Positions 36,808 through 47,756 of a stretch of DNA of 64,000 nucleotides are shown here, piece by piece (the first letter of the stretch is position 1; each line of letters opens with the position of its first letter). The position numbers and the translations under genes are program-made. This stretch comes from Hoeflea prorocentri (lineage in GTDB: Bacteria > Pseudomonadota > Alphaproteobacteria > Rhizobiales > Rhizobiaceae). The stretch spans positions 2,108,001 to 2,172,000 of the forward strand of contig NZ_JAPJZI010000001.1 in assembly GCF_027944115.1 (NCBI RefSeq). The letters run 5' to 3'. The notes under the pieces are model-generated. The model was not told the origin of the DNA. It ran no database searches and saw only the letters and a program-made list of their open reading frames with translations.

Positions 36808-37728
36808 CTAAACCAGCGCGCCCGATACGCGCCACTCGACGCCCGGCTTGTGATGGAAGAAGCCGTTGGAAAAGGGCACATCGGGTCCGCAGTCCTGCAA
36901 TAGCCCATTTGCCTCTTCAGCGGTGATCTCATCATCAAGGACCGCGCGAAAGACCTTTGCGGCATGCATGGTCCCGGCACTATGCGGCGAAAGGCGGAAA
37001 TGGCTGATGCCCAGTTCCATCAGTTCAGCGAGTTCGCAAACTAGATTGAGGCGGGTGTAGGACATGGTCTGGATGCCGTTGACCGTCAGGAAGGGCTGGC
37101 CGTCAAGGGTATTCAGTTCCATTCCGTCCGGATCAAGGTCGCAGATGAACTTGCAGCTGTCCTTGGTCCGACCGTGGGCGCGGGCGTGATAGCAGCGCGC
37201 CGAAAGGGCAAGCGGTATCCTGCCGAAGACTTGTGTTTCCAAGGTAACGCCGCGTTCCTGCGCGCGTGCCGTGAGCGCCGCGATACCCTCTTTCGGAAGC
37301 TCGGGCGACAGGCAGATATGGGTGGCGCCCTCGTCGGCAAGAGCGTCGAGGCTGTCTTCATTGTAGACATTCACGAAGGGTCCAATGACATGGGGTTTTC
37401 CCGAAAGGTGCCACAGGGCGGAGATGTCATTGACTTCGATCGCCGCATCGTTGTCTGTCGTTACGGCCTTGACCAGGCGCCTGTCGATCGCGCTGGAGAC
37501 CTCCGCCAGGCTTGAAAAGTACACCTGTTTGCCGCCCGTTTTCAGCCGATCGACAACTGCATCGACATATTTATCGAATAACGGCGCCCGCTTCGAACAG
37601 ACAACCTCACCGACATAGACCCTAGAGACGGGCGCCTCATCGGCGATCTCGAAATAAAAATCCCGCCACACTTCCGGCTGCCAGTTGAACAGAACCGGCC
37701 CGAGCGTCAGTTCACCTTGCATTGTCAT
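36808..37728 (-). CDS. ubiV: UbiV, U32-family subunit of oxygen-independent ubiquinone hydroxylase
   Basis: 306 residues. The first ATG overlaps the ubiU stop (ATGA). A second ATG two codons on (37720-37722) has GGAG at the better 6-nt distance. Peptidase-U32 family without known protease activity. The cysteines C44, C179, C192 and C196 (EVVCSKRAP, SARCYHARAHGRTKDSCKFIC) fit the four ligands of the UbiV 4Fe-4S cluster. UbiV and UbiU form a heterodimer that, with UbiT, hydroxylates ubiquinone precursors without O2, using prephenate as oxygen donor in the best studied system. Confidence 0.95.
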   Translation of the reverse strand: MTMQGELTLGPVLFNWQPEVWRDFYFEIADEAPVSRVYVGEVVCSKRAPLFDKYVDAVVDRLKTGGKQVYFSSLAEVSSAIDRRLVKAVTTDNDAAIEVNDISALWHLSGKPHVIGPFVNVYNEDSLDALADEGATHICLSPELPKEGIAALTARAQERGVTLETQVFGRIPLALSARCYHARAHGRTKDSCKFICDLDPDGMELNTLDGQPFLTVNGIQTMSYTRLNLVCELAELMELGISHFRLSPHSAGTMHAAKVFRAVLDDEITAEEANGLLQDCGPDVPFSNGFFHHKPGVEWRVSGALV

Positions 37729-38729
37729 CTCCAGGTTTTCGAGCGGAATGCGCCCTGTGTTTCGCGCTGGCCTTCGGTCAACGCGAGCAGATGGCTGACA
37801 TCCGGTGTGCGGCCTGCGGCATAATCGTCAACCGCTCCCCGGAACGCCGATACGACAGAACGCACATAGGCGCGCGAGCGCTGCCGGCCCTCGATCTTCA
37901 AGGCCGTCACGCCGACCTGGACCAGATCGGCCAGGAGATGCGTCAGGTTCAGGCTGACAGGCTCCTCAAAGGCATAATAATGCTCGCGGTGTGGGGCACT
38001 GTAACGCCCTTTGCAGATGGTCGGATAACCGGCATGTTCACCCTGGGCGAAACGATCAATTGTCACATCGCGCAGGCTTGATGTGAGATTGCCTTGCCTG
38101 TCTTCTTCATAGTGGACGTCGCCCGCAGGCGAGCACACGCCGTCCAGATTGGTGGAACAACCGGTGACATAGTTCGTCAGGGCGCAGCGCCCCTCTGCCA
38201 TCATGCCGATATTGCCGAAGACGAATGCCTCGATCTCGCAAGGTATCGCATCGTGTATCTGCTTGATTTCAGCGACGGTGAGGATACGCGGCAGGACGAC
38301 CCGCTTGACATCGAACCGGTCACACCAGAACCGGATGGCTTCAGCCGACGATGCGCCGGCCTGAACCGACAGATGAATACGCTGCTGTGGATGGCGGGTA
38401 CTGAGATAACGGGCCATGCCGATATCGGCGATGATAATGGCGTCCACGCCGCAAGCGACCGCTGCATCGACCGCCTCCTTCCATACATGGGTGCGGCCCG
38501 CCGTCGGAAAGGAATTGATCGCAGCAAGCACCTTGGCATCGCGCTCATGGGCGTAGTCCACGGCCTTCGCCATCTGTTCCGGCGTGAAATTGAGACCGGG
38601 GAAGTTGCGCGCATTGGTCGGCCCCTGGAAGCCGCAATAGACGGCATCAGCGCCCGCATCGACCGCCGTCCGAAGCCCGGCCGGCGTGCCGGCGGGACAA
38701 ACGAGTTCCGGTGGCTGGATTGAGCTCAT
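37725..38729 (-). CDS. ubiU: UbiU, U32-family subunit of oxygen-independent ubiquinone hydroxylase
   Basis: 334 residues. Starts MSSIQPPELVCPAGTPAGLRTAVDAGADAVYCGFQGPTNARNF, the U32 TIM-barrel beginning. Cluster cysteines are visible at C182, C191, C199 and C239 (GRCALTNYVTGC, DGVCSPAG, PTICKGRY). Partner of UbiV. Overlaps ubiT by 4 bp and ubiV by 4 bp, so the three are one coupled operon ubiT-ubiU-ubiV. Confidence 0.95.
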   Translation of the reverse strand: MSSIQPPELVCPAGTPAGLRTAVDAGADAVYCGFQGPTNARNFPGLNFTPEQMAKAVDYAHERDAKVLAAINSFPTAGRTHVWKEAVDAAVACGVDAIIIADIGMARYLSTRHPQQRIHLSVQAGASSAEAIRFWCDRFDVKRVVLPRILTVAEIKQIHDAIPCEIEAFVFGNIGMMAEGRCALTNYVTGCSTNLDGVCSPAGDVHYEEDRQGNLTSSLRDVTIDRFAQGEHAGYPTICKGRYSAPHREHYYAFEEPVSLNLTHLLADLVQVGVTALKIEGRQRSRAYVRSVVSAFRGAVDDYAAGRTPDVSHLLALTEGQRETQGAFRSKTWR

Positions 38730-39220
38730 TTTCCATTCCTTCCGCTCACTGCATCAAGAACAACCCGGACTGGACGGGCAAGCGGACCGAAGCAGGACAC
38801 CACATCTTCGGCCAGTGTGGTGTCGAGATCGTCCAGCGCGTTGCGAAGCGCTACCGAAGCTTCCGTGTCGCCTGAGATCGTCAGTTCACGGCTGAAAAAC
38901 AGCGCATCGCTGTCCGTCTGACCGTCGATCATACGCAACAGCGTCGGAAACGAGCCGGAGATGCGGACATCACTGGGCGGCAACCGATGCCTGTTGAAGG
39001 CCTGAAGGCGCGGCGCAGTCCCATCCGGTTGCAAGAGCAGAACCAGCGGCAGGCCGCGTGGATCTATCAGGAAACGTTTCTTCTGGCTGTCGCCAAGCCG
39101 CTCAAAAAGATCCGGATGCTTGCGCGCGACAGTCGTTACGATATGGCGAAGCAAGGGCTGGAGGACAAAGAGCGGCAAAGGGAGGAATAGTCCCTGTGCG
39201 GGTGGACCGGATCCATGCAT
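38726..39220 (-). CDS. ubiT: UbiT, SCP2-domain accessory factor for anaerobic ubiquinone synthesis
   Basis: 164 residues if the ATG at 39218-39220 is used. An in-frame ATG at 39266-39268 gives 180 residues but would coincide with the transcription start expected for an activator bound at the FNR box upstream. The SCP2 lipid-binding fold is seen in FLIDPRGLPLVLLLQPDGTAPRLQAFNRHRLPPSDVRISGSFPTLLRMIDGQTDSDALFFSRELTISGDTEA, shown here only to mark the domain span of about residues 50-135. UbiT binds polyprenyl ubiquinone intermediates for UbiUV. First gene of the operon. Confidence 0.88.
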   Translation of the reverse strand: MHGSGPPAQGLFLPLPLFVLQPLLRHIVTTVARKHPDLFERLGDSQKKRFLIDPRGLPLVLLLQPDGTAPRLQAFNRHRLPPSDVRISGSFPTLLRMIDGQTDSDALFFSRELTISGDTEASVALRNALDDLDTTLAEDVVSCFGPLARPVRVVLDAVSGRNGK

Positions 39221-39302
39221 TCGAACCGGATTTTTGCCGGGACCGGCCGATTCTCGATTGTAGGTCATGGACCGGTTTTAGGGACGCTCTGCGACGGCAG
39301 AC

Positions 39303-39371: not shown

Positions 39372-42300
39372 CTAAAGGTCGACCCTGATTTTTCCACCGG
39401 CTTCAGCGGCTCTGGAGCAGCACAGGATGACGCGGTCCTTACGCTCTTTTGCCGACAAGACGTGGTCCCGGTGCTCCACCTGGCCATCAACAAGCGTGGC
39501 AGCGCAAACACCGCACAACCCGTCTGTACATTTGACGTCGACATGGATCCCGGCGTCGTTCAATGCGTCTGCCGCCGTCTGGTCCGCTGTTACAACCAAC
39601 TCGCGCCCGGAACGCGCCAGTTCCACGGTGAAGTCGTGATTGACGTAATCTGGCGTTTCCGGGACGGAGAAGTACTCCTTCAAAAGCGCCTCCTCCGGCC
39701 AGCCCTTGGCGGCGGCCACATCGAAGACCCCATCCATGTAGCGATCGGCTCCGCAGGTATAGAGCCTGAAACCGTCCCGGAATTGCGGCACAAGTTCACT
39801 TAGCCTGGCACGCCGTCCCTCGCCTGAAAAATGAAAAAAGACGCGCTCCGACCAGGGCATTGATTTCAACTCATCTGCGAAACCGCACTGCTCCGCGGAC
39901 TTTGCGCTGTAGTGCAGAATAAACTCCTTGCCGAGCGCATGCAGCCGGTGGGCCATGGTCATCAGCGGAGTTACGCCAATTCCCCCGGCCATCAAGAGGG
40001 AAAACTGCGCTGTCTCGTCCAGAGGGAAGTGGTTGCGCGGCTTGGAGATAAAGATCCGCCTGCCCTCCTTGAAGACACGGTGCATCAGCAGCGAGCCGCC
40101 CCGCCCTTTTTCCTCCCGTTGGACGCCCAGGACATACTTATCTGCATCGGCGGGATCGCCAGCGAGCGAATATTGCCGCTGATATTCGGGCGCGATGACC
40201 ACATCGACATGGGCACCGGCCTCCACTTTCGGCAGAGGCTTGCCGTCGGCACGCTCGAGTTCAAAGCGCACGATGTCCGGCGCGGGGTCCGTGCGCCTGG
40301 AGACGACAACAGGAAAGACCTCCGGGTCGGCGGAGGGCGGCTGCGCCTTTGGCGCAAGGCCCTCAGTCTCGCCTTTCGACAGTTTTTCGCGATAGGCTTC
40401 AGGTGTCAGCAAGGAGCGGTAGCGTTCGATACCGGTTTCCCGATCAAGCGGATGCGTCACGGGATAAGGCGGCGGCATCATGTCCGCCGGGTAGACCGCA
40501 AGGGTCTGATCGGCATAGTGAAGCTTCAGGTCCTTTGACAAACCGCGTTCGTTGACGGCCGCGGCAGGCACATAGCGGCCGGCTTCAACATTCAGTTCTA
40601 TATCCCACCACCACTTTTTGACCGGATTGATTTCACCTCTGCCAAGCCGGTCATCGAGGGCTGCCAGTGTCTTGGCACTCGCCGGTGCATTGATCGCAAG
40701 CCAGCGGAAGGCTTCGTCGGCAAACAACCCCTCCAGGTTCCAGGGGCAGGTTTTCATGCAGCGTCCGCACATGCCGCCGGCTGCATTGGTGATACGGTAA
40801 CGGGCGCATTTTTCCGCATCGGACTTCCAGATCTCATAGCCGTTATACATCAGCTTCGGACCCGCGGTGATTGCCCCGGACGGGCATTCACGGGCACATT
40901 TGTTGCATGAGTTGCAGAAGTGCTGGAGACCGAAATCGATTGGCTTGTCATGCACCATCGGCATCGAGGTGGTGACGACCCCGGATTTCAGGCGCGGCCC
41001 CAAAAACGGGTTGAGGATGACTTCGCCGATCCGGCTCACCTCGCCAAGCCCGGACAGCAACAGCAAGGGTGGCTGCAGAACGTCGCCATCCAGCACCGAG
41101 TGCACCCTTGCGGAATAGCCAAGCCGCCTGACCTGCTCGCCGATCACGCCGCCGAGAAGCGAAAACCGCAAATAGGCGCGCATGGACTGGGCAACGGAAA
41201 TCCAGTCGTCTCCACTGGCGCCTTCCATTGTGTCGAAGCCCTGGTCGAGAAGCAGCGAAACACCATTGTCGTGATAGGGCTCAATCGGGTTGCCGCCGGC
41301 ATCATGGGAATAATAGGCCCAGTCGGGTACGCGGCTCAAACCAACCGCATCCGCTGACAGATAGTAGGACGCCGCCTTGAGATTGTCGGCATTGCGTTGC
41401 GGATCGTGCGTGTCCGGAGAAACCGGCCCGCGTGCCTCCCCGAACTGCAAAAGAAGAAGGGCGCCCAGGGCCCGGCGCGCGCAGGCGCCAATTGGGCTCT
41501 TCATCACATACATTCCGCCTTTCGCACCCTCCTGGACCTTGCGGCCGATGTCGCCGAAAAGCGCACGAGCGAAGAAATCTGCTCTTTTGGGAAAGCGCGG
41601 AACGCGCTCCTCATCGATAAAGGTGGTGGGTTTGTCGGTCCGCTTGATTGTCTCAAAAGGATGCGGCCCCATGCGAAAGTCACGGTCCTTGTAGGGTGTT
41701 GCCGTACCTGCCCGGCGCTGTGTTCCGCGGCCCATCCACCAGTCAGGACCGTGGGAGCGCCAGCCGGCTCGCCCGGCATCGGCCCCAAGGGGCAGGTCCT
41801 CATCCAGATCGAGGGTTGTCGTAACAGCGGCCAGACCGAAGCGGGAGCCCACAAACGGATTGATCAGCGCTGCGGTCTCGCCTGCACCTTGAACCGCACA
41901 CAGGCCGGATGAGACGGCAAGCCGGCCAAGATCGACATCACTTGTCGTTGCCGTGTGCGCGCGCGCCTCATGTCCCAGCATCCGGATATAATTTGCGATC
42001 ACAACCGCCACGTTGGAGGTCAAGAGCGCGGCGCGTTCGGCCTGCGTATCAACAAACCATTCGGTGCCCGCCTCGTCCGGCTTCGGATCGCGCGTGTATT
42101 CGACAAGAAACATCAGGGCGTGGGTGTGATGGGCGACCGGTCCCAGCTCCTCGCGTGCCGATTCCAGAACATCCGCGTAAATCGCATCCACTCCGGAGGC
42201 AAAACTCTTCGGCTGCCCTGCTTCCAGTTCTTCCTTCAGGTCGGCGACCATCGGATTGCGGATCGGTTCGGCGAGAAAATGCGCGGGCCCAAGCTTTGCA

Positions 42301-42605
42301 ATGCCGACCATCGACGCGTCAAAATAATAGGCCGCAGCCTTCATGTGATCCGCACGCTCGCGCGGATCGGTCGGGATTTCCGCCGTTTTATGGACAATCC
42401 TGCCGTCACGCACGGTATCGAGCATGCCCTGAAACCTGGCCATTGCGTGGGCGAGCGAAGCGGATGGATGGCGCGAAAAATCCAACGGCCGCATGGACGG
42501 GACCGCAGACAAATCGGGCTGCGTCTCATTCCGTCTCAGCTTTTCAAGTGGAAACGGGCCAAGATGGAACGGACGGTGCTTTGCCGAAAAGAAGTTCACA
42601 CTCAT
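39372..42605 (-). CDS. Self-sufficient reductive dehalogenase: RdhA fused to flavin/2Fe-2S reductase
   Basis: 1077 residues from the ATG at 42603-42605. Residues 1 to about 750 match the catabolic (NpRdhA/BhbA-like) reductive dehalogenases. They have a corrinoid-binding region, then two ferredoxin-type motifs, CNSCNKCARECP (C564, C567, C570, C574) and C600 with CGRCMKTCP (C613, C616, C620). Residues of about 760-980 are a ferredoxin-reductase module: RQYS (810-813) for flavin and GGIGVTP (874-880) for NAD(P)H. The end is a plant-type 2Fe-2S domain (C1026, C1031, C1034, C1062). It has no Tat signal, and no membrane anchor gene is adjacent, so it should be cytoplasmic. Electrons would flow NAD(P)H, flavin, 2Fe-2S, 4Fe-4S, B12, removing halide from an aromatic. 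Halogenated substrate unknown. It lies 4 bp after its MarR gene. Confidence 0.9.
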   Translation of the reverse strand: MSVNFFSAKHRPFHLGPFPLEKLRRNETQPDLSAVPSMRPLDFSRHPSASLAHAMARFQGMLDTVRDGRIVHKTAEIPTDPRERADHMKAAAYYFDASMVGIAKLGPAHFLAEPIRNPMVADLKEELEAGQPKSFASGVDAIYADVLESAREELGPVAHHTHALMFLVEYTRDPKPDEAGTEWFVDTQAERAALLTSNVAVVIANYIRMLGHEARAHTATTSDVDLGRLAVSSGLCAVQGAGETAALINPFVGSRFGLAAVTTTLDLDEDLPLGADAGRAGWRSHGPDWWMGRGTQRRAGTATPYKDRDFRMGPHPFETIKRTDKPTTFIDEERVPRFPKRADFFARALFGDIGRKVQEGAKGGMYVMKSPIGACARRALGALLLLQFGEARGPVSPDTHDPQRNADNLKAASYYLSADAVGLSRVPDWAYYSHDAGGNPIEPYHDNGVSLLLDQGFDTMEGASGDDWISVAQSMRAYLRFSLLGGVIGEQVRRLGYSARVHSVLDGDVLQPPLLLLSGLGEVSRIGEVILNPFLGPRLKSGVVTTSMPMVHDKPIDFGLQHFCNSCNKCARECPSGAITAGPKLMYNGYEIWKSDAEKCARYRITNAAGGMCGRCMKTCPWNLEGLFADEAFRWLAINAPASAKTLAALDDRLGRGEINPVKKWWWDIELNVEAGRYVPAAAVNERGLSKDLKLHYADQTLAVYPADMMPPPYPVTHPLDRETGIERYRSLLTPEAYREKLSKGETEGLAPKAQPPSADPEVFPVVVSRRTDPAPDIVRFELERADGKPLPKVEAGAHVDVVIAPEYQRQYSLAGDPADADKYVLGVQREEKGRGGSLLMHRVFKEGRRIFISKPRNHFPLDETAQFSLLMAGGIGVTPLMTMAHRLHALGKEFILHYSAKSAEQCGFADELKSMPWSERVFFHFSGEGRRARLSELVPQFRDGFRLYTCGADRYMDGVFDVAAAKGWPEEALLKEYFSVPETPDYVNHDFTVELARSGRELVVTADQTAADALNDAGIHVDVKCTDGLCGVCAATLVDGQVEHRDHVLSAKERKDRVILCCSRAAEAGGKIRVDL

Positions 42606-42609
42606 GATC

Positions 42610-43059
42610 CTAAAGGCGCTCGAGTTCGCGCGTTTCGCCGGACGACAGCACATCGATATTCCGCAGCAGGATATTGAGGTCGGCATCAGCGATTTTTGAC
42701 GTGAAATGGTCGTTGAGCCATTCGACATGAACCCGGCACTGCTCCATGACATCTCGCCCTTTGTCGGTCAGCCTGATTTCGATGCCCCTGCCATCACCCG
42801 AGGCGGGCTGCCGGATAATCAGCTCCATTTTTTCCATGGAGCGCAAGGCGCGCGACACTGCCGAACGCGCGACGCCGACATAAGACGCAAGCTCCGAAGG
42901 CGTATGGACCCCCTCCAGGCCGACACCGCTCAGGACACACCACATAAGACGCGTCACGCCATAATGGCTGATTTTTTCTTCAAGCCGCGCCTCCATCAGG
43001 CGTGCGAGCCGCGAGACCTTGTAGCCAAGCCGACCATGCAGACGATAGTTACACCCCAT
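42610..43059 (-). CDS. MarR family regulator of the reductive dehalogenase gene
   Basis: 149 residues from the ATG at 43057-43059 (AGAAGG upstream). Winged helix: VTRLMWCVLSGVGLEGVHTPSELASYVGVARSAVSRALRSMEKMELIIRQPASGDGRGIEIRLTDKGRDVMEQ. First gene of a two-gene operon with the dehalogenase. A strong dyad lies directly upstream. MarR-type regulators also accompany many reductive dehalogenase genes in Dehalococcoides, where they act as repressors released by the halogenated substrate or a product; a similar role here is inference. Confidence 0.9.
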   Translation of the reverse strand: MGCNYRLHGRLGYKVSRLARLMEARLEEKISHYGVTRLMWCVLSGVGLEGVHTPSELASYVGVARSAVSRALRSMEKMELIIRQPASGDGRGIEIRLTDKGRDVMEQCRVHVEWLNDHFTSKIADADLNILLRNIDVLSSGETRELERL

Positions 43060-43086
43060 GTGCCTTCTCTTTCGACCATGCAATCC

Positions 43087-43111: not shown

Positions 43112-43194
43112 AGTTATCATTGTTAACTTCAAGACGCTTCAACCGGGCACATTGTCGGTTTATGTACAAGGCTGCATAAAACGGGGACCAGACC

Positions 43195-44157
43195 ATGAAT
43201 GACGCAGACATCTTGATTGCCGGAAGCTTTTCACAATCAGCCGAGGAGATGTTTTCCAAGTCTTTTGTCTGCCATCGTCTCCTTCAGGACGCGGATATCC
43301 AGTCACTACCGGTGGGCGTTGCGGAAAAGATTCGCGCGATCGCGGCCGCTCCAAACGCCTCAGTGCATAGCAATCTGATCAAAAAGCTCCCCGGCCTTGA
43401 GATCATTGCGAATTTCGGTGTCGGTTACGACAATATCGATGTCAGCTATGCCGCAAGACACAAGATCATCGTCACAAACACCCCGGATGTCCTGACCGAA
43501 GAGGTTGCCGACGTAGCAATCGGCCTCATGATCATGACCGCGAGGGAGTTGTCCGCCGCCGAACGATGGCTGCGCGACGGCAATTGGAACGGCAGCTACC
43601 CGCTCACTCGCGGCACCTTGCGATCGAAGCGCCTGGGCATATTCGGCCTCGGGCGTATTGGCCTTGCCATCGCGAAGCGGGCCGAAGCAATGAATATGGA
43701 AATCTGCTACCACAACAGAAACCGCGTACGGGACGTGCGCTATCCCTATTGCGCCAGCCTGCGCGAACTTGCATCTCACTGCGACATTCTGCTTTGCGCC
43801 GCCCCCGGGGGAGATGCAACGCGGCGGGCCATCGGATCGGAGATATTCGAGGCGCTCGGCCCCGATGGCATCTTGATTAATATCGGCCGCGGATCGACCG
43901 TTGACGAGACGGCCCTTATCAAAGCGTTGAAAGACGGCACGATCATGAGCGCCGGGCTCGATGTTTTCCACGACGAACCGCATGTGCCGGAAGACCTCCT
44001 GACAATGGACAATGTGGTTCTGCTTCCCCACGTTGCGTCCGCATCTCAGTTCACGCGTAATGCGATGGGAAAGCTGCAGGTTGACAATCTGGTGTCCTGG
44101 TTCCGGGACGGCTTACCGCTGACACCCGTGCCGGAAACGCCCTGGCCCAGGCCTTGA
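43195..44157 (+). CDS. D-isomer 2-hydroxyacid dehydrogenase (glyoxylate/hydroxypyruvate reductase-like)
   Basis: 320 residues. Nucleotide-binding GLGRIG at 151-156, followed by HNR at 173-175, whose Arg suggests NADPH use. The catalytic triad is R232 (NIGRGS), E261 (DEPHVP) and H279 (PHVASAS). The N-terminal substrate domain has NFGVGYDNIDV. It reduces 2-oxo acids such as glyoxylate or hydroxypyruvate, or a substituted phenylpyruvate-like acid. It is divergent from the MarR/dehalogenase operon across one shared operator-like dyad, so it may act in the same pathway. Confidence 0.92.
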   Translation: MNDADILIAGSFSQSAEEMFSKSFVCHRLLQDADIQSLPVGVAEKIRAIAAAPNASVHSNLIKKLPGLEIIANFGVGYDNIDVSYAARHKIIVTNTPDVLTEEVADVAIGLMIMTARELSAAERWLRDGNWNGSYPLTRGTLRSKRLGIFGLGRIGLAIAKRAEAMNMEICYHNRNRVRDVRYPYCASLRELASHCDILLCAAPGGDATRRAIGSEIFEALGPDGILINIGRGSTVDETALIKALKDGTIMSAGLDVFHDEPHVPEDLLTMDNVVLLPHVASASQFTRNAMGKLQVDNLVSWFRDGLPLTPVPETPWPRP

Positions 44158-44693: not shown

Positions 44694-45077
44694 CTATTTG
44701 CCGAACGAAGTCTGGGCGTAGACCTCGCGCAACCGACAAATCATTTAACAGGACGATCGCCATCCCCTGCGGCTCACGTCCCAAAGCGACGCGCACGACT
44801 ATGCCGCCTCTCATACCCGTCCATTGCAGCGCCACCACCGAAAGGAAATCCGGTCGTGACTTAGGCACGAATCGACAGCCCGTCATCGTGAGCGACAGAC
44901 GGAAATTAGGGGACCGCCACAGCGGGCTCAATCACCCGAATGGGTGACAGGAAACTCCTAACACACTCGTTTGCTTGAGAAATCACTTGCCCCCAATAGT
45001 GGCAAAACCGCCGCAATTTGAATAAGACTAGCAGAACGCAAGTTGGTGCCTGCCGGCATCACGCAGGGGACAATCGC
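44694..45077. other. Intergenic stretch upstream of the hybrid kinase gene
   Basis: No gene recognised; a minus-strand open frame at 44407-44931 runs across the terminator hairpin and into the PhnB-like gene and looks like chance. A small dyad TCACCC-GAAT-GGGTGA (44932-44947) lies about 130 bp before the kinase start and could be a regulator site. Confidence 0.45.
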
Positions 45078-46829
45078 ATGACGCAAGCCGAGGCGCCGGT
45101 TGACGACAGGCTGATCGAAATCAGGATCGCCCAGCAACTGCTTACCCGCTCACCGATCGCAACAACATCCTCTTTTCTGTTCGCCTTGCTGTGCGTTACT
45201 CTGCTTCACGACAGGGTACCGACAGACATCGCAGCCGGCTGGCTGGTCTCGGTTTTTGTCGCCGGCTGCCTGCCTTTCGCATATATGGCCGTGCAAAGAC
45301 GTCATCCGTTCAGTCGCTCGAATATTCGCACATATCTGTTTTTCAACACGCTCAATGCCCTCATATCGGGCCTTGTATGGGGTATCGGGATGTCGGCGCT
45401 GACCGATACATCGTCCGCCCCCTCGATCGCCAACAGTTTTCTTGCAATTTTGGCCTACTCAACGGCCGCCGTGGTCAGCCATGGCGCCTTTCCACGCTCC
45501 TATGCCGCTGCGGCAGGTTCGGCACTTCTCATTTACGGATCTTTCCTCATCGTTTCAGCGCCCGCCCCCGAATGGCGCTTCGGCTTTGTATCGGTCATCA
45601 TGTTCCTTCCGTACATGCTGATTGCGCGCAACATCCATCGCACCACGGTATCGGGTCTGGTCTCCCGGCAGCGACACGATGACATGGTCGAGACCCTGAG
45701 ACAGCAACGCGATGCCATCGAGAAAATCAACGACGACAAAACCCGGTTTCTCGCGGCCACAAGCCATGACCTCGCGCAACCCTTGCATGCGCAGGGCAAT
45801 TACATTGCCGCCTTGCACCGAAAGCTGACACAGCCCGATCAATATGAACTGCTGCAAAAGATCGAAGCCAGTTGGAGAAGCATGGGCAGCATGCTTGAAG
45901 GGCTGGTCGATATTTCCCGGCTTGAGACTGGAAGCGTCGTGCCCAACATCGTGCCCGTGGAGCTGTCAGCACTGGTCTTCGAAATTGTCGACGAGTTCGC
46001 GGAGGTTGCGGACCAGAAACAAATCCAGTTGAGTGCGGATACCTATAAGGCGGTCACCGATACCGACCCTTACCTTTTCAGCCGGGTCCTGCGAAACGTT
46101 GTTTCCAACGCCATCAAGTTCACACCACCTCATGGCCGGGTTATTGCCCGGTTCCGGCAAGACGGCGAAGACATCGTGTTCGACATTCAGGATACCGGTA
46201 TCGGCATCCCGGCTGACAAGATCGGACAGGTCTTCGACGAATATATCCAACTACAAAATGATGAGCGAGATCGCACCAAGGGACTTGGGCTCGGCCTGTC
46301 GATCGTCCGCCGGCTGTGCAACCTGCTCGAAATCGACCACCAGCTCGTATCACACCCGGAAAAGGGTAGCTGCTTCACCTTCCGCCTGCGGCAATCACGA
46401 TCCATTCCGGAAACAACAGCATCAAAAAGTGAGCAGCGCGACGCCTTGCGCATGAGCGTCCTCGTGGTGGATGACGAGCGTACCATCCTGGACAGCATGT
46501 CGGTGATCCTTTCGGACTGGGGCTGTGAAGTGTTTTGCGCGCCGTCGGTTTCGCAGGCGGTCGAGCTGGTCAAAACCTTGAACCTCTCGCCCGATGTCCT
46601 GATAACGGATTTGCGGTTGCCGGGAACTGTCGGCGGCAGCCAACTTGTCGACCTCATCCGCACGACTGTAAAACGAAACCTTCCCGCTATCATCATGACC
46701 GGTAATATCAAGGGCGTCAGCAAGAGCGACCTGCCCTCAGACGCCCTTTTGCTGACAAAGCCGGTCGACGCGGGAACGCTCTATCATGAGCTGTCGCAAA
46801 TCAACGCCTGCGGATCAGATGTAGCGTAA
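45078..46829 (+). CDS. Hybrid sensor histidine kinase/response regulator, membrane-bound
   Basis: 583 residues from the ATG at 45078 (AGGGGA 7 nt upstream); an upstream TTG reading is less likely. About six membrane helices in residues 30-190 without a periplasmic sensor domain, then a HisKA domain with phospho-acceptor H230 (ATSHDLAQPLHAQ). The HATPase domain has SNAIKFTPPHG and DTGIGIPADKIGQVFDEY. The C-terminal receiver has phospho-acceptor D511 (VLITDLRLPG) and a KPVD lysine. It senses something in or near the membrane. The NarL-type regulator encoded tail to tail with it is a probable partner. Confidence 0.92.
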   Translation: MTQAEAPVDDRLIEIRIAQQLLTRSPIATTSSFLFALLCVTLLHDRVPTDIAAGWLVSVFVAGCLPFAYMAVQRRHPFSRSNIRTYLFFNTLNALISGLVWGIGMSALTDTSSAPSIANSFLAILAYSTAAVVSHGAFPRSYAAAAGSALLIYGSFLIVSAPAPEWRFGFVSVIMFLPYMLIARNIHRTTVSGLVSRQRHDDMVETLRQQRDAIEKINDDKTRFLAATSHDLAQPLHAQGNYIAALHRKLTQPDQYELLQKIEASWRSMGSMLEGLVDISRLETGSVVPNIVPVELSALVFEIVDEFAEVADQKQIQLSADTYKAVTDTDPYLFSRVLRNVVSNAIKFTPPHGRVIARFRQDGEDIVFDIQDTGIGIPADKIGQVFDEYIQLQNDERDRTKGLGLGLSIVRRLCNLLEIDHQLVSHPEKGSCFTFRLRQSRSIPETTASKSEQRDALRMSVLVVDDERTILDSMSVILSDWGCEVFCAPSVSQAVELVKTLNLSPDVLITDLRLPGTVGGSQLVDLIRTTVKRNLPAIIMTGNIKGVSKSDLPSDALLLTKPVDAGTLYHELSQINACGSDVA

Positions 46830-46865
46830 GGTGCCTGCACCAGCCCGCATTCCGGCACATCGGGC

Positions 46866-47525
46866 TTAATCAATCAGTCCGAGTGATTGCGCCCTTCGAA
46901 CACAGGCCGCCCGCGTGTTGACGTCGAGGATCTGAAATATTCTTTTGACATGGGTCTTGATCGTGTTCTCGCTGACCTGGAGCACCCCCGCCACGCGGCG
47001 GTTTGAGTACCCCTCCGAAACCAGCTGGAGCACTTCAAGCTGACGTTGGCTGAGCTTGACCGATGTCTCATCCGCCCCTTGTCTCATCGCGGCCGGAGAG
47101 CGGCTATTGTGTTCATAAATATCCCACAGCTTCGGCGGCAGAAATATGTCACCGGCAAGAACAGTGTCCAACGCTTCGTCAAGCATGGCCGACGAGGCGG
47201 TTTTCGGGATGAAACCCTGAGCACCAAGGCGTAAGGCCTCTTCCACCGGCGGCGCTGTGCTGATGCCCGAGATGATGAGCACAGGCATGCGGGCACCGCG
47301 TGCGCGCAATGCCTTTACGAACGCAATGCCATTGATGCTGTCCATGATGAGGTCGGAGATCACGAGGTCGAACCGCCTGCCCTCCTCAAACATGCGTAAC
47401 GCTGTGAGAGGCGATGCGATGGATGTGCACCTATAATGATCGCCGATCCCGCTAATCAGCCCTGCGAGCCCATCTGCAAACATCTGGTGATCATCTACGA
47501 TCACGACTTCGACCGGTTTCGCCAT
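46866..47525 (-). CDS. NarL/LuxR-type response regulator
   Basis: 219 residues from the ATG at 47523-47525 (a TTG precedes it). Receiver domain with D11, D12 and phospho-acceptor D58 (LVISDLIMDS), and the conserved Lys in GFIPKTAS. The C-terminal LuxR helix-turn-helix is LSQRQLEVLQLVSEGYSNRRVAGVLQVSENTIKTHVKRIFQILDVNTR. Ends 36 bp from the kinase stop, in the opposite direction. Its targets are not evident. Confidence 0.93.
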   Translation of the reverse strand: MAKPVEVVIVDDHQMFADGLAGLISGIGDHYRCTSIASPLTALRMFEEGRRFDLVISDLIMDSINGIAFVKALRARGARMPVLIISGISTAPPVEEALRLGAQGFIPKTASSAMLDEALDTVLAGDIFLPPKLWDIYEHNSRSPAAMRQGADETSVKLSQRQLEVLQLVSEGYSNRRVAGVLQVSENTIKTHVKRIFQILDVNTRAACVRRAQSLGLID

Positions 47526-47756
47526 CAAATCGGTTTTCCCTGCCCCGCCCCCGTAGTCGCATGTTTGTAGGCCACGGTCAAAGCCGTAAAACTGCGGTAG
47601 AGCGCAGCTAGGCGACGGCTTTCAATCACGGAAAAGGCAGACAGTTTTCTCTTCGGTCTTAACCTAAAATAAGCGCTCTTGTGCTACCCAAAGGGACAAA
47701 ATCCGACATCAAAGCCGCAATCATCGGCAAATCAAACGCATGACCATCTAAGAAAG

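Follow-up and report, generated by a model that had tools for sequence, protein, structure and literature searches.

We analysed a 64,000-nucleotide stretch of a Hoeflea prorocentri contig (NZ_JAPJZI010000001.1, positions 2,108,001 to 2,172,000), called the window below, and concentrated on rdhA, a gene encoding a reductive dehalogenase fused to its own reductase (RdhA-PDOR). It lies on the minus strand, from an ATG at 42605 to a stop codon at 39374-39372, and the frame on the opposite (plus) strand is interrupted by stops. Relatives whose alignments begin at residue 1 back this start. The original prediction had placed the gene and its 1077 residues exactly, without stating the strand. The gene and its domains are the following.

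39372..42605, minus strand: rdhA, fused reductive dehalogenase of 1077 residues (open reading frame, phmmer, family profiles, structure model)
41676..42605, minus strand: N-terminal vestigial copy of the corrinoid-binding domain, residues 1-310 (internal duplication; second weak TIGR02486 match)
40926..41675, minus strand: predicted functional corrinoid/active-site domain, residues 311-560, with F345, S474, M475, R476, Y478 and K540 (alignment; boundary approximate)
40686..40925, minus strand: two 4Fe-4S motifs (C564/567/570/574 and C600/613/616/620) and R604, residues 561-640 (Pfam Fer4_7 and Fer4_16; conserved cysteines)
39681..40322, minus strand: reductase module binding flavin mononucleotide (FMN) and NAD(P)H, residues 762-975, with RQYS at 810-813 and GGIGVTP at 874-880 (matches, alignment; boundary approximate)
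39375..39638, minus strand: C-terminal plant-type 2Fe-2S domain, residues 990-1077, with Cys 1026/1031/1034/1062 (Pfam Fer2, E 1.8e-9)

Domains, active site and relatives of the fused enzyme

The protein matches the catabolic dehalogenase NpRdhA (4ras, 6zxu) over residues 5-108 and 159-743 with phmmer E-values of about 1e-169 to 6e-169, and as a whole it scores 187 bits against TIGR02486, the NCBIfam reductive dehalogenase profile (cut-off 160.35). With the eight cysteines of the two 4Fe-4S motifs, this confirms the corrinoid and two-cluster half that had been predicted from the sequence. Residues 769-1069 match phthalate dioxygenase reductase (2pia) at E 6e-55, and a slightly larger region, about 755-1072, matches both this protein and self-sufficient P450s (6laa, 6kbh, 2pia). 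The RQYS and GGIGVTP motifs on which a flavin/NAD(P)H module had been proposed fall within this region, and the C-terminal 2Fe-2S domain was also called correctly. An AlphaFold2 model built from 25 aligned sequences has a mean predicted local distance difference test score (pLDDT) of 77.9 and a predicted template modelling (TM) score of 0.79. In a Foldseek search with this model, NpRdhA chains take ranks 1-14 (target-normalised TM 0.82-0.84), 2pia is matched at 0.64, and the 50 matches listed include no QueG entry. A closer similarity to the queuosine enzyme QueG, which had been named as one outcome that would overturn the assignment, is ruled out: TIGR00276 gives 27.9 bits (cut-off 200), far behind the dehalogenase profile. 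A six-frame search of the genome with TIGR02486 also returned a weak match in a 383-residue frame at C1:4088954, perhaps the genome's QueG.

Residues 1-310 are a diverged copy of the corrinoid domain that follows them (blastp E 9e-16 with 25.5% identity in 298 columns; hhalign E 1e-26 with a probability of 99.7%). The available text of Fisher et al. (2023, JBC; PMC10463259), which describes the fused enzyme JtRdhA of Jhaorihella thermophila, gives such a vestigial duplication as a mark of catabolic RdhAs. A pattern search, made without a signal predictor, found no twin-arginine translocation (Tat) motif in residues 1-80, in line with the predicted lack of a Tat signal. We rejected a respiratory RdhA, as the Tat motif was not found and the reductase is fused; the fused reductase also sets the protein apart from truncated catabolic enzymes of the NpRdhA type. 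For the RdhB membrane anchor of respiratory enzymes, the two genes adjoining rdhA were considered, and these are marR and ubiT. The gene is under purifying selection, with nonsynonymous and synonymous divergences of 0.14 and 1.5 relative to the two nearest kin, the latter being close to saturation.

A genome scan returned 275 stretches that encode relatives of the query, of which we kept 80 (L numbers below; G numbers are genomes). The fusion is full-length or nearly so in all 80, which come from Rhizobiales, Rhodobacterales, Burkholderiales and a few other bins, and a full-length copy is found in 7/7 other genomes of the genus. Eight plasmid records cover 80% of the query, and five of them were fetched. 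The resulting alignment and tree have 95 rows; they omit L001, L082, L084 and L085 (the window itself) and L086-L088 (contigs of L005, L002 and L003). In the quick tree of these rows, the window protein falls within a 39-row clade A, made of 18 mainly alphaproteobacterial and 21 mainly betaproteobacterial rows. Outside it lie BhbA with a Nitratireductor OM-1 relative, and a clade B of the Ruegeria/Maritimibacter type. A careful tree of 33 rows supports clade A (99/99), its alphaproteobacterial part (99/100) and the BhbA pair (100/99). At the position of NpRdhA F290, the residue is Phe in 39/39 rows of clade A, in BhbA and in the truncated enzyme, and Met in 49/51 rows of clade B.

The dehalogenase half is identical to NpRdhA at 234 of 502 aligned positions. 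These include all seven catalytic and pocket residues compared, a check that the original prediction had asked for: F291, S422, M423, R424, Y426, K488 and R552 correspond in the phmmer alignment to F345, S474, M475, R476, Y478, K540 and R604. In NpRdhA, according to the accessible part of PMC7565698, Y426 and K488 form the proton-donating dyad, while K488, R552 and S422 contact the substrate hydroxyl. S474, M475, R476, Y478, K540, R604 and the eight 4Fe-4S cysteines are kept in 95/95 rows. F345 is kept in 94/95, the exception being a partial row, and the four 2Fe-2S cysteines in 94/95, the exception being a truncated NpRdhA-like protein that lacks the reductase. Outside the catalytic set the pocket has changed (K307 to A361, A419 to V471, N452 to V504 and F310 to Y366). 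Such changes might be expected of an enzyme shifted to a non-halogenated substrate, like the QueG-type class III corrinoid enzymes. We regard this as improbable: the halophenol-binding set S422/K488/R552/Y426 is intact in every row, the QueG score is far under its cut-off, and the fused JtRdhA is a true debrominase in the published account available to us (PMC10463259).

The genes around the fusion differ between relatives. Some Paracoccaceae (L006, L009, L010, L012, L033) have cobT-like and cobS-like genes a few kb upstream of it; one member per cluster was confirmed with Pfam and the others were assigned via clustering. Such genes serve the assembly of the cobamide lower ligand. The BhbA-type fusions on plasmids L105 (NC_021077) and L106 (NZ_CP029209) lie beside insertion sequences and genes for extradiol dioxygenases of the protocatechuate/gallate type, and the window locus differs from these. 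Several clade B loci (L047, L059, L062, L063, L066, L068, L072, L077-L081 and similar) have a three-gene block 3' of the fusion. By eye it resembles a molybdenum hydroxylase (flavin adenine dinucleotide, 2Fe-2S and molybdenum subunits) with a divergent LysR regulator, possibly indicating a different pathway. Neighbours encoding a Rieske demethylase, a short-chain dehydrogenase/reductase or a TctC receptor in other members are patchy, and open reading frame picking is noisy in GC-rich loci; we did not build on them.

The MarR regulator, its inverted repeat and the importer

Upstream of rdhA lies a marR gene, as had been described from the sequence, with a putative operator in its promoter. A related arrangement occurs on the second replicon of the same genome.

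42610..43083, minus strand: marR (Pfam MarR and MarR_2; the start is perhaps ATG 43059 instead of TTG 43083)
43113..43127, minus strand: putative MarR operator, the 15-bp inverted repeat GTTAACA-A-TGATAAC, in the marR promoter
43132-43127 and 43110-43105, minus strand: sigma-70-like marR promoter, TTGAAG and TATAAT with a spacer of 16, called by eye, with the repeat between
L117:3216-9907 (G000:C2 about 403200-409900): second-replicon locus with a paralogous MarR and a divergent tripartite ATP-independent periplasmic (TRAP) importer (DctP, DctQ, DctM), a further DctM-like gene and an oxidoreductase of the GMC type (GMC by eye)

The marR stop codon precedes the rdhA start by 4 bp in the same direction, so the two genes probably form one transcript. 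This type of MarR is found near rdhA in 13 of the 95 rows (the window and 12 others), counted within fetched flanks of which some are only 1.5 kb long. Among 37 genomes, the MarR subfamily (E 1e-20) is present in 7/10 that carry rdhA and in 0/27 others (Fisher p 1e-5, which is overstated because the genomes are related).

Within the window the repeat is unique at up to two mismatches (0.05 sites expected). Across the genome, the only perfect site is that of the window, and one further site has a single mismatch; about 0.01 and 0.6 such sites are expected by chance. The single-mismatch site lies on the second replicon, between the paralogous MarR (55% identical to that of the window) and the TRAP importer. 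Scored over 14 positions, the repeat reaches 14 in the window and L089, 13 at the second-replicon locus, L134, L135, L136 and L050, and 12 in L005 and L133. Simple shuffles of 14 upstream regions equalled it in 0/200 cases for the window, L089, L005 and L093, and in 2-4/200 for L004, L018 and L107. Matches at up to two mismatches number 12 in the genome, against 16 for a reversed control pattern; therefore, only the two best sites are meaningful. A regulon beyond them is unsupported, as two-mismatch matches are not in excess of the control.

Such a TRAP importer is divergent from marR-rdhA itself in six other loci (L008, L018, L050, L107, L136 and L137). These occur in the clade of the window protein, in the other main clade and on a plasmid. 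A MarR/TRAP block adjoins rdhA in G001, G014, Maritalea, L008, L018 and an Aminobacter plasmid. The proteins of L008 and G014 are near-identical, and there are thus fewer than six independent cases. The block also occurs with no rdhA in the fetched stretch in G003, G004 and G006; in G004 a single internal stop interrupts the MarR. At the second-replicon locus, a search for an rdhA remnant found none (best E 0.26). The match of the TRAP binding protein to PDB 4p56 is real and could suggest a mandelate-type ligand; a literature search did not confirm this ligand, and we set the idea aside. Overall, a link of rdhA to this regulator and to an organic-acid importer is likely.

TRAP importers generally carry organic acids. 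Because of this, of the best substrate of JtRdhA and of the product-using enzymes of the genome, we favour an imported ortho-halogenated hydroxyaryl acid, i.e. a carboxylate, as the natural substrate, and give this specific proposal about an even chance. The predicted product-using enzymes are a 4-hydroxybenzoate 3-monooxygenase and a 4-hydroxyphenylpyruvate dioxygenase, which could take on the products; no HpaD scores above its cut-off in the genome. The enzyme could instead serve detoxification, debrominating simple halophenols without an acid group, such as 2,6-dibromophenol, that diffuse freely, with the TRAP link being incidental. JtRdhA does take carboxylate-free bromophenols and iodophenols (PMC10463259, in the text available), the importer of this genome is not beside rdhA, and three genomes carry the fusion without this MarR. 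Yet the divergent importer recurs in six loci across two main clades and a plasmid, and a near-identical repeat marks the importer on the second replicon. Moreover, the rates that this text gives for JtRdhA, relative to its best substrate 3,5-dibromo-4-hydroxybenzoate, are 6.8% for 2,6-dibromophenol and 13.6% for bromoxynil. We consider the detoxification of simple halophenols rather unlikely.

Taken as a whole, the best explanation is a cytoplasmic, self-sufficient catabolic reductive dehalogenase, encoded in a marR-rdhA operon and most likely acting on an imported halogenated hydroxyaryl acid, and we hold it with considerable confidence. The domains, residues, duplication, gene order, repeat and clade are seen directly; the regulation and the substrate class are suggested by gene context only. 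Several results weigh against it. This type of MarR is missing from the fetched flank in 82/95 rows (flank lengths vary, and some are 1.5 kb), and the genomes that bear the fusion without the MarR subfamily are G002, G005 and G011. The importer is unlinked to rdhA in this genome, the single-mismatch site that would connect them is of a kind expected about 0.6 times by chance, and matches at up to two mismatches are fewer than those of the control. The repeat does not exceed shuffles in L002 (37/200), L008 (36/200), L109 (25/200), L017 (162/200) and L026 (91/200). The same holds for L050 and L003 (range over all seven, 25-200/200), but there the scored stretch missed the right place, and a wider look, unshuffled, gives 13/14 and 11/14. 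L137 has no repeat site of at least 11/14. Concerning the enzyme itself, the six-frame genome search with TIGR02486 split the protein into matches of 145.9 and 38.3 bits, each below the cut-off, and the structure model is weak around the 4Fe-4S motifs (pLDDT below 50 at 574-596 and 609-614).

Cofactors, electron path, chemistry and oxygen tolerance can be proposed from the characterised relatives. In the C-terminal reductase, FMN would take up a hydride from NAD(P)H; single electrons would then reach a base-off corrinoid by way of the 2Fe-2S and the two 4Fe-4S clusters. An ortho-halogenated phenol would be bound with its halogen on cobalt and its phenolate held by K540, R604 and S474; Y478 would give the proton and the halide would leave. 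The genome has the late cobalamin gene cobS. The operon, with rdhA second, would probably be repressed by its own MarR at the inverted repeat, and the substrate would enter through the TRAP importer, here on the second replicon beside the paralogous MarR and its near-identical repeat. A more speculative extension, which we consider doubtful, is that clade A is a second functional lineage devoted to imported halogenated hydroxyaryl acids, in which the MarR pair and shared operator link the chromosomal rdhA to the second-replicon importer and the Phe at the F290 position might allow dechlorination. Such acids could come, for example, from the breakdown of the halogenated tyrosines of marine animals and algae.

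Other genes near the dehalogenase

36808-39268, minus strand: ubiT, ubiU and ubiV, oxygen-independent ubiquinone synthesis, all above NCBIfam cut-offs, between rdhA and an ATP-grasp gene
43195..44157, plus strand: D-2-hydroxyacid dehydrogenase, divergent, of the glyoxylate/hydroxypyruvate/hydroxyphenylpyruvate reductase type

The ubiTUV genes lie directly downstream of rdhA on the same strand, and could suggest an anaerobic, respiratory-type role for the dehalogenase. However, in four kin (L002, L003, L005 and L089) the gene directly after rdhA is the ATP-grasp gene, which in the window comes only after ubiTUV, and ubiTUV was not found in the flank of any fetched relative (the rest of the kin genomes was not searched). 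Hence, ubiTUV looks like a local, lineage-specific insertion, and we rejected it as a functional partner. With no Tat motif found and an NAD(P)H reductase fused in place of a quinol path, an anaerobic role is very improbable.

The divergent 2-hydroxyacid dehydrogenase, also as originally described, is nearest to glyoxylate/hydroxypyruvate reductases, with hydroxyphenylpyruvate reductase next. The window shares the divergent, adjacent arrangement with L002 and L005. Within 8 kb, L007, L012, L029, L032 and L034 have relatives of 44-52% identity, and L014 (29%) and L042 (37%) have weaker ones. We rejected it as a dedicated partner: the next-best paralogue of the genome is 42% identical and the family is common. 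A role beside rdhA is possible, by a weak link, and would suit an aryl-lactate or aryl-pyruvate. Also near the dehalogenase, two convergent genes at 45018-47528 encode a hybrid histidine kinase resembling NahK/ErcS, which scores below the subfamily cut-off, and a response regulator of the LuxR type nearest to ErdR.

Comparison with known systems

Enzymes that remove halogens in air with NADPH alone are wanted for the clean-up of brominated and chlorinated phenols. The window protein adds a member from a separate clade. The genes around it offer an inducer and an import system that can be tested: with the TRAP binding protein and the MarR as ligand probes, the natural substrate, long an open question, could be sought directly. 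Our knowledge of how reductive dehalogenases work is unchanged.

The layout is not new, since the class of self-sufficient catabolic RdhAs was described in 2023 with JtRdhA as fused, cytoplasmic, NADPH-dependent and active in air. The available text (PMC10463259) names BhbA and JtRdhA as the only characterised fusions, and every sequence-level feature that it lists for the class is present in the window protein, which is a further member. Compared by this description, JtRdhA and the window protein share the duplicated corrinoid domain, two 4Fe-4S clusters, the PDOR module with FMN and 2Fe-2S, the lack of a Tat signal and the key residues. JtRdhA removes bromine and iodine, but not chlorine.

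BhbA (WP_015585978, L105), from plasmid pBHB of Comamonas sp. 7D-2, has the same fusion, is 51% identical over its full length and keeps the same catalytic residues. It belongs to another clade, and its pocket has S where the window protein has A361 and V471. Its plasmid is of the IncP type, with protocatechuate 4,5-dioxygenase genes and transposases next to the fusion. NpRdhA of Nitratireductor pacificus (4ras, 6zxu, 6zy1) shares the dehalogenase half, the fold and all the catalytic residues, but lacks the insert at about 109-158 (the gap between the phmmer stretches) and the fused reductase. The original prediction was right to name NpRdhA and BhbA as relatives, with the correction that NpRdhA is a naturally truncated enzyme lacking the reductase, according to the accessible text of PMC10463259. 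CYP116B46 (6laa) and phthalate dioxygenase reductase (2pia) use the same type of reductase module as in-built electron supply, with an unrelated catalytic half (a haem P450) or none. In comparison with these systems, and with the literature on the combination searched narrowly, what is new is computational: the clade placement, the operator and the association with MarR and TRAP genes.

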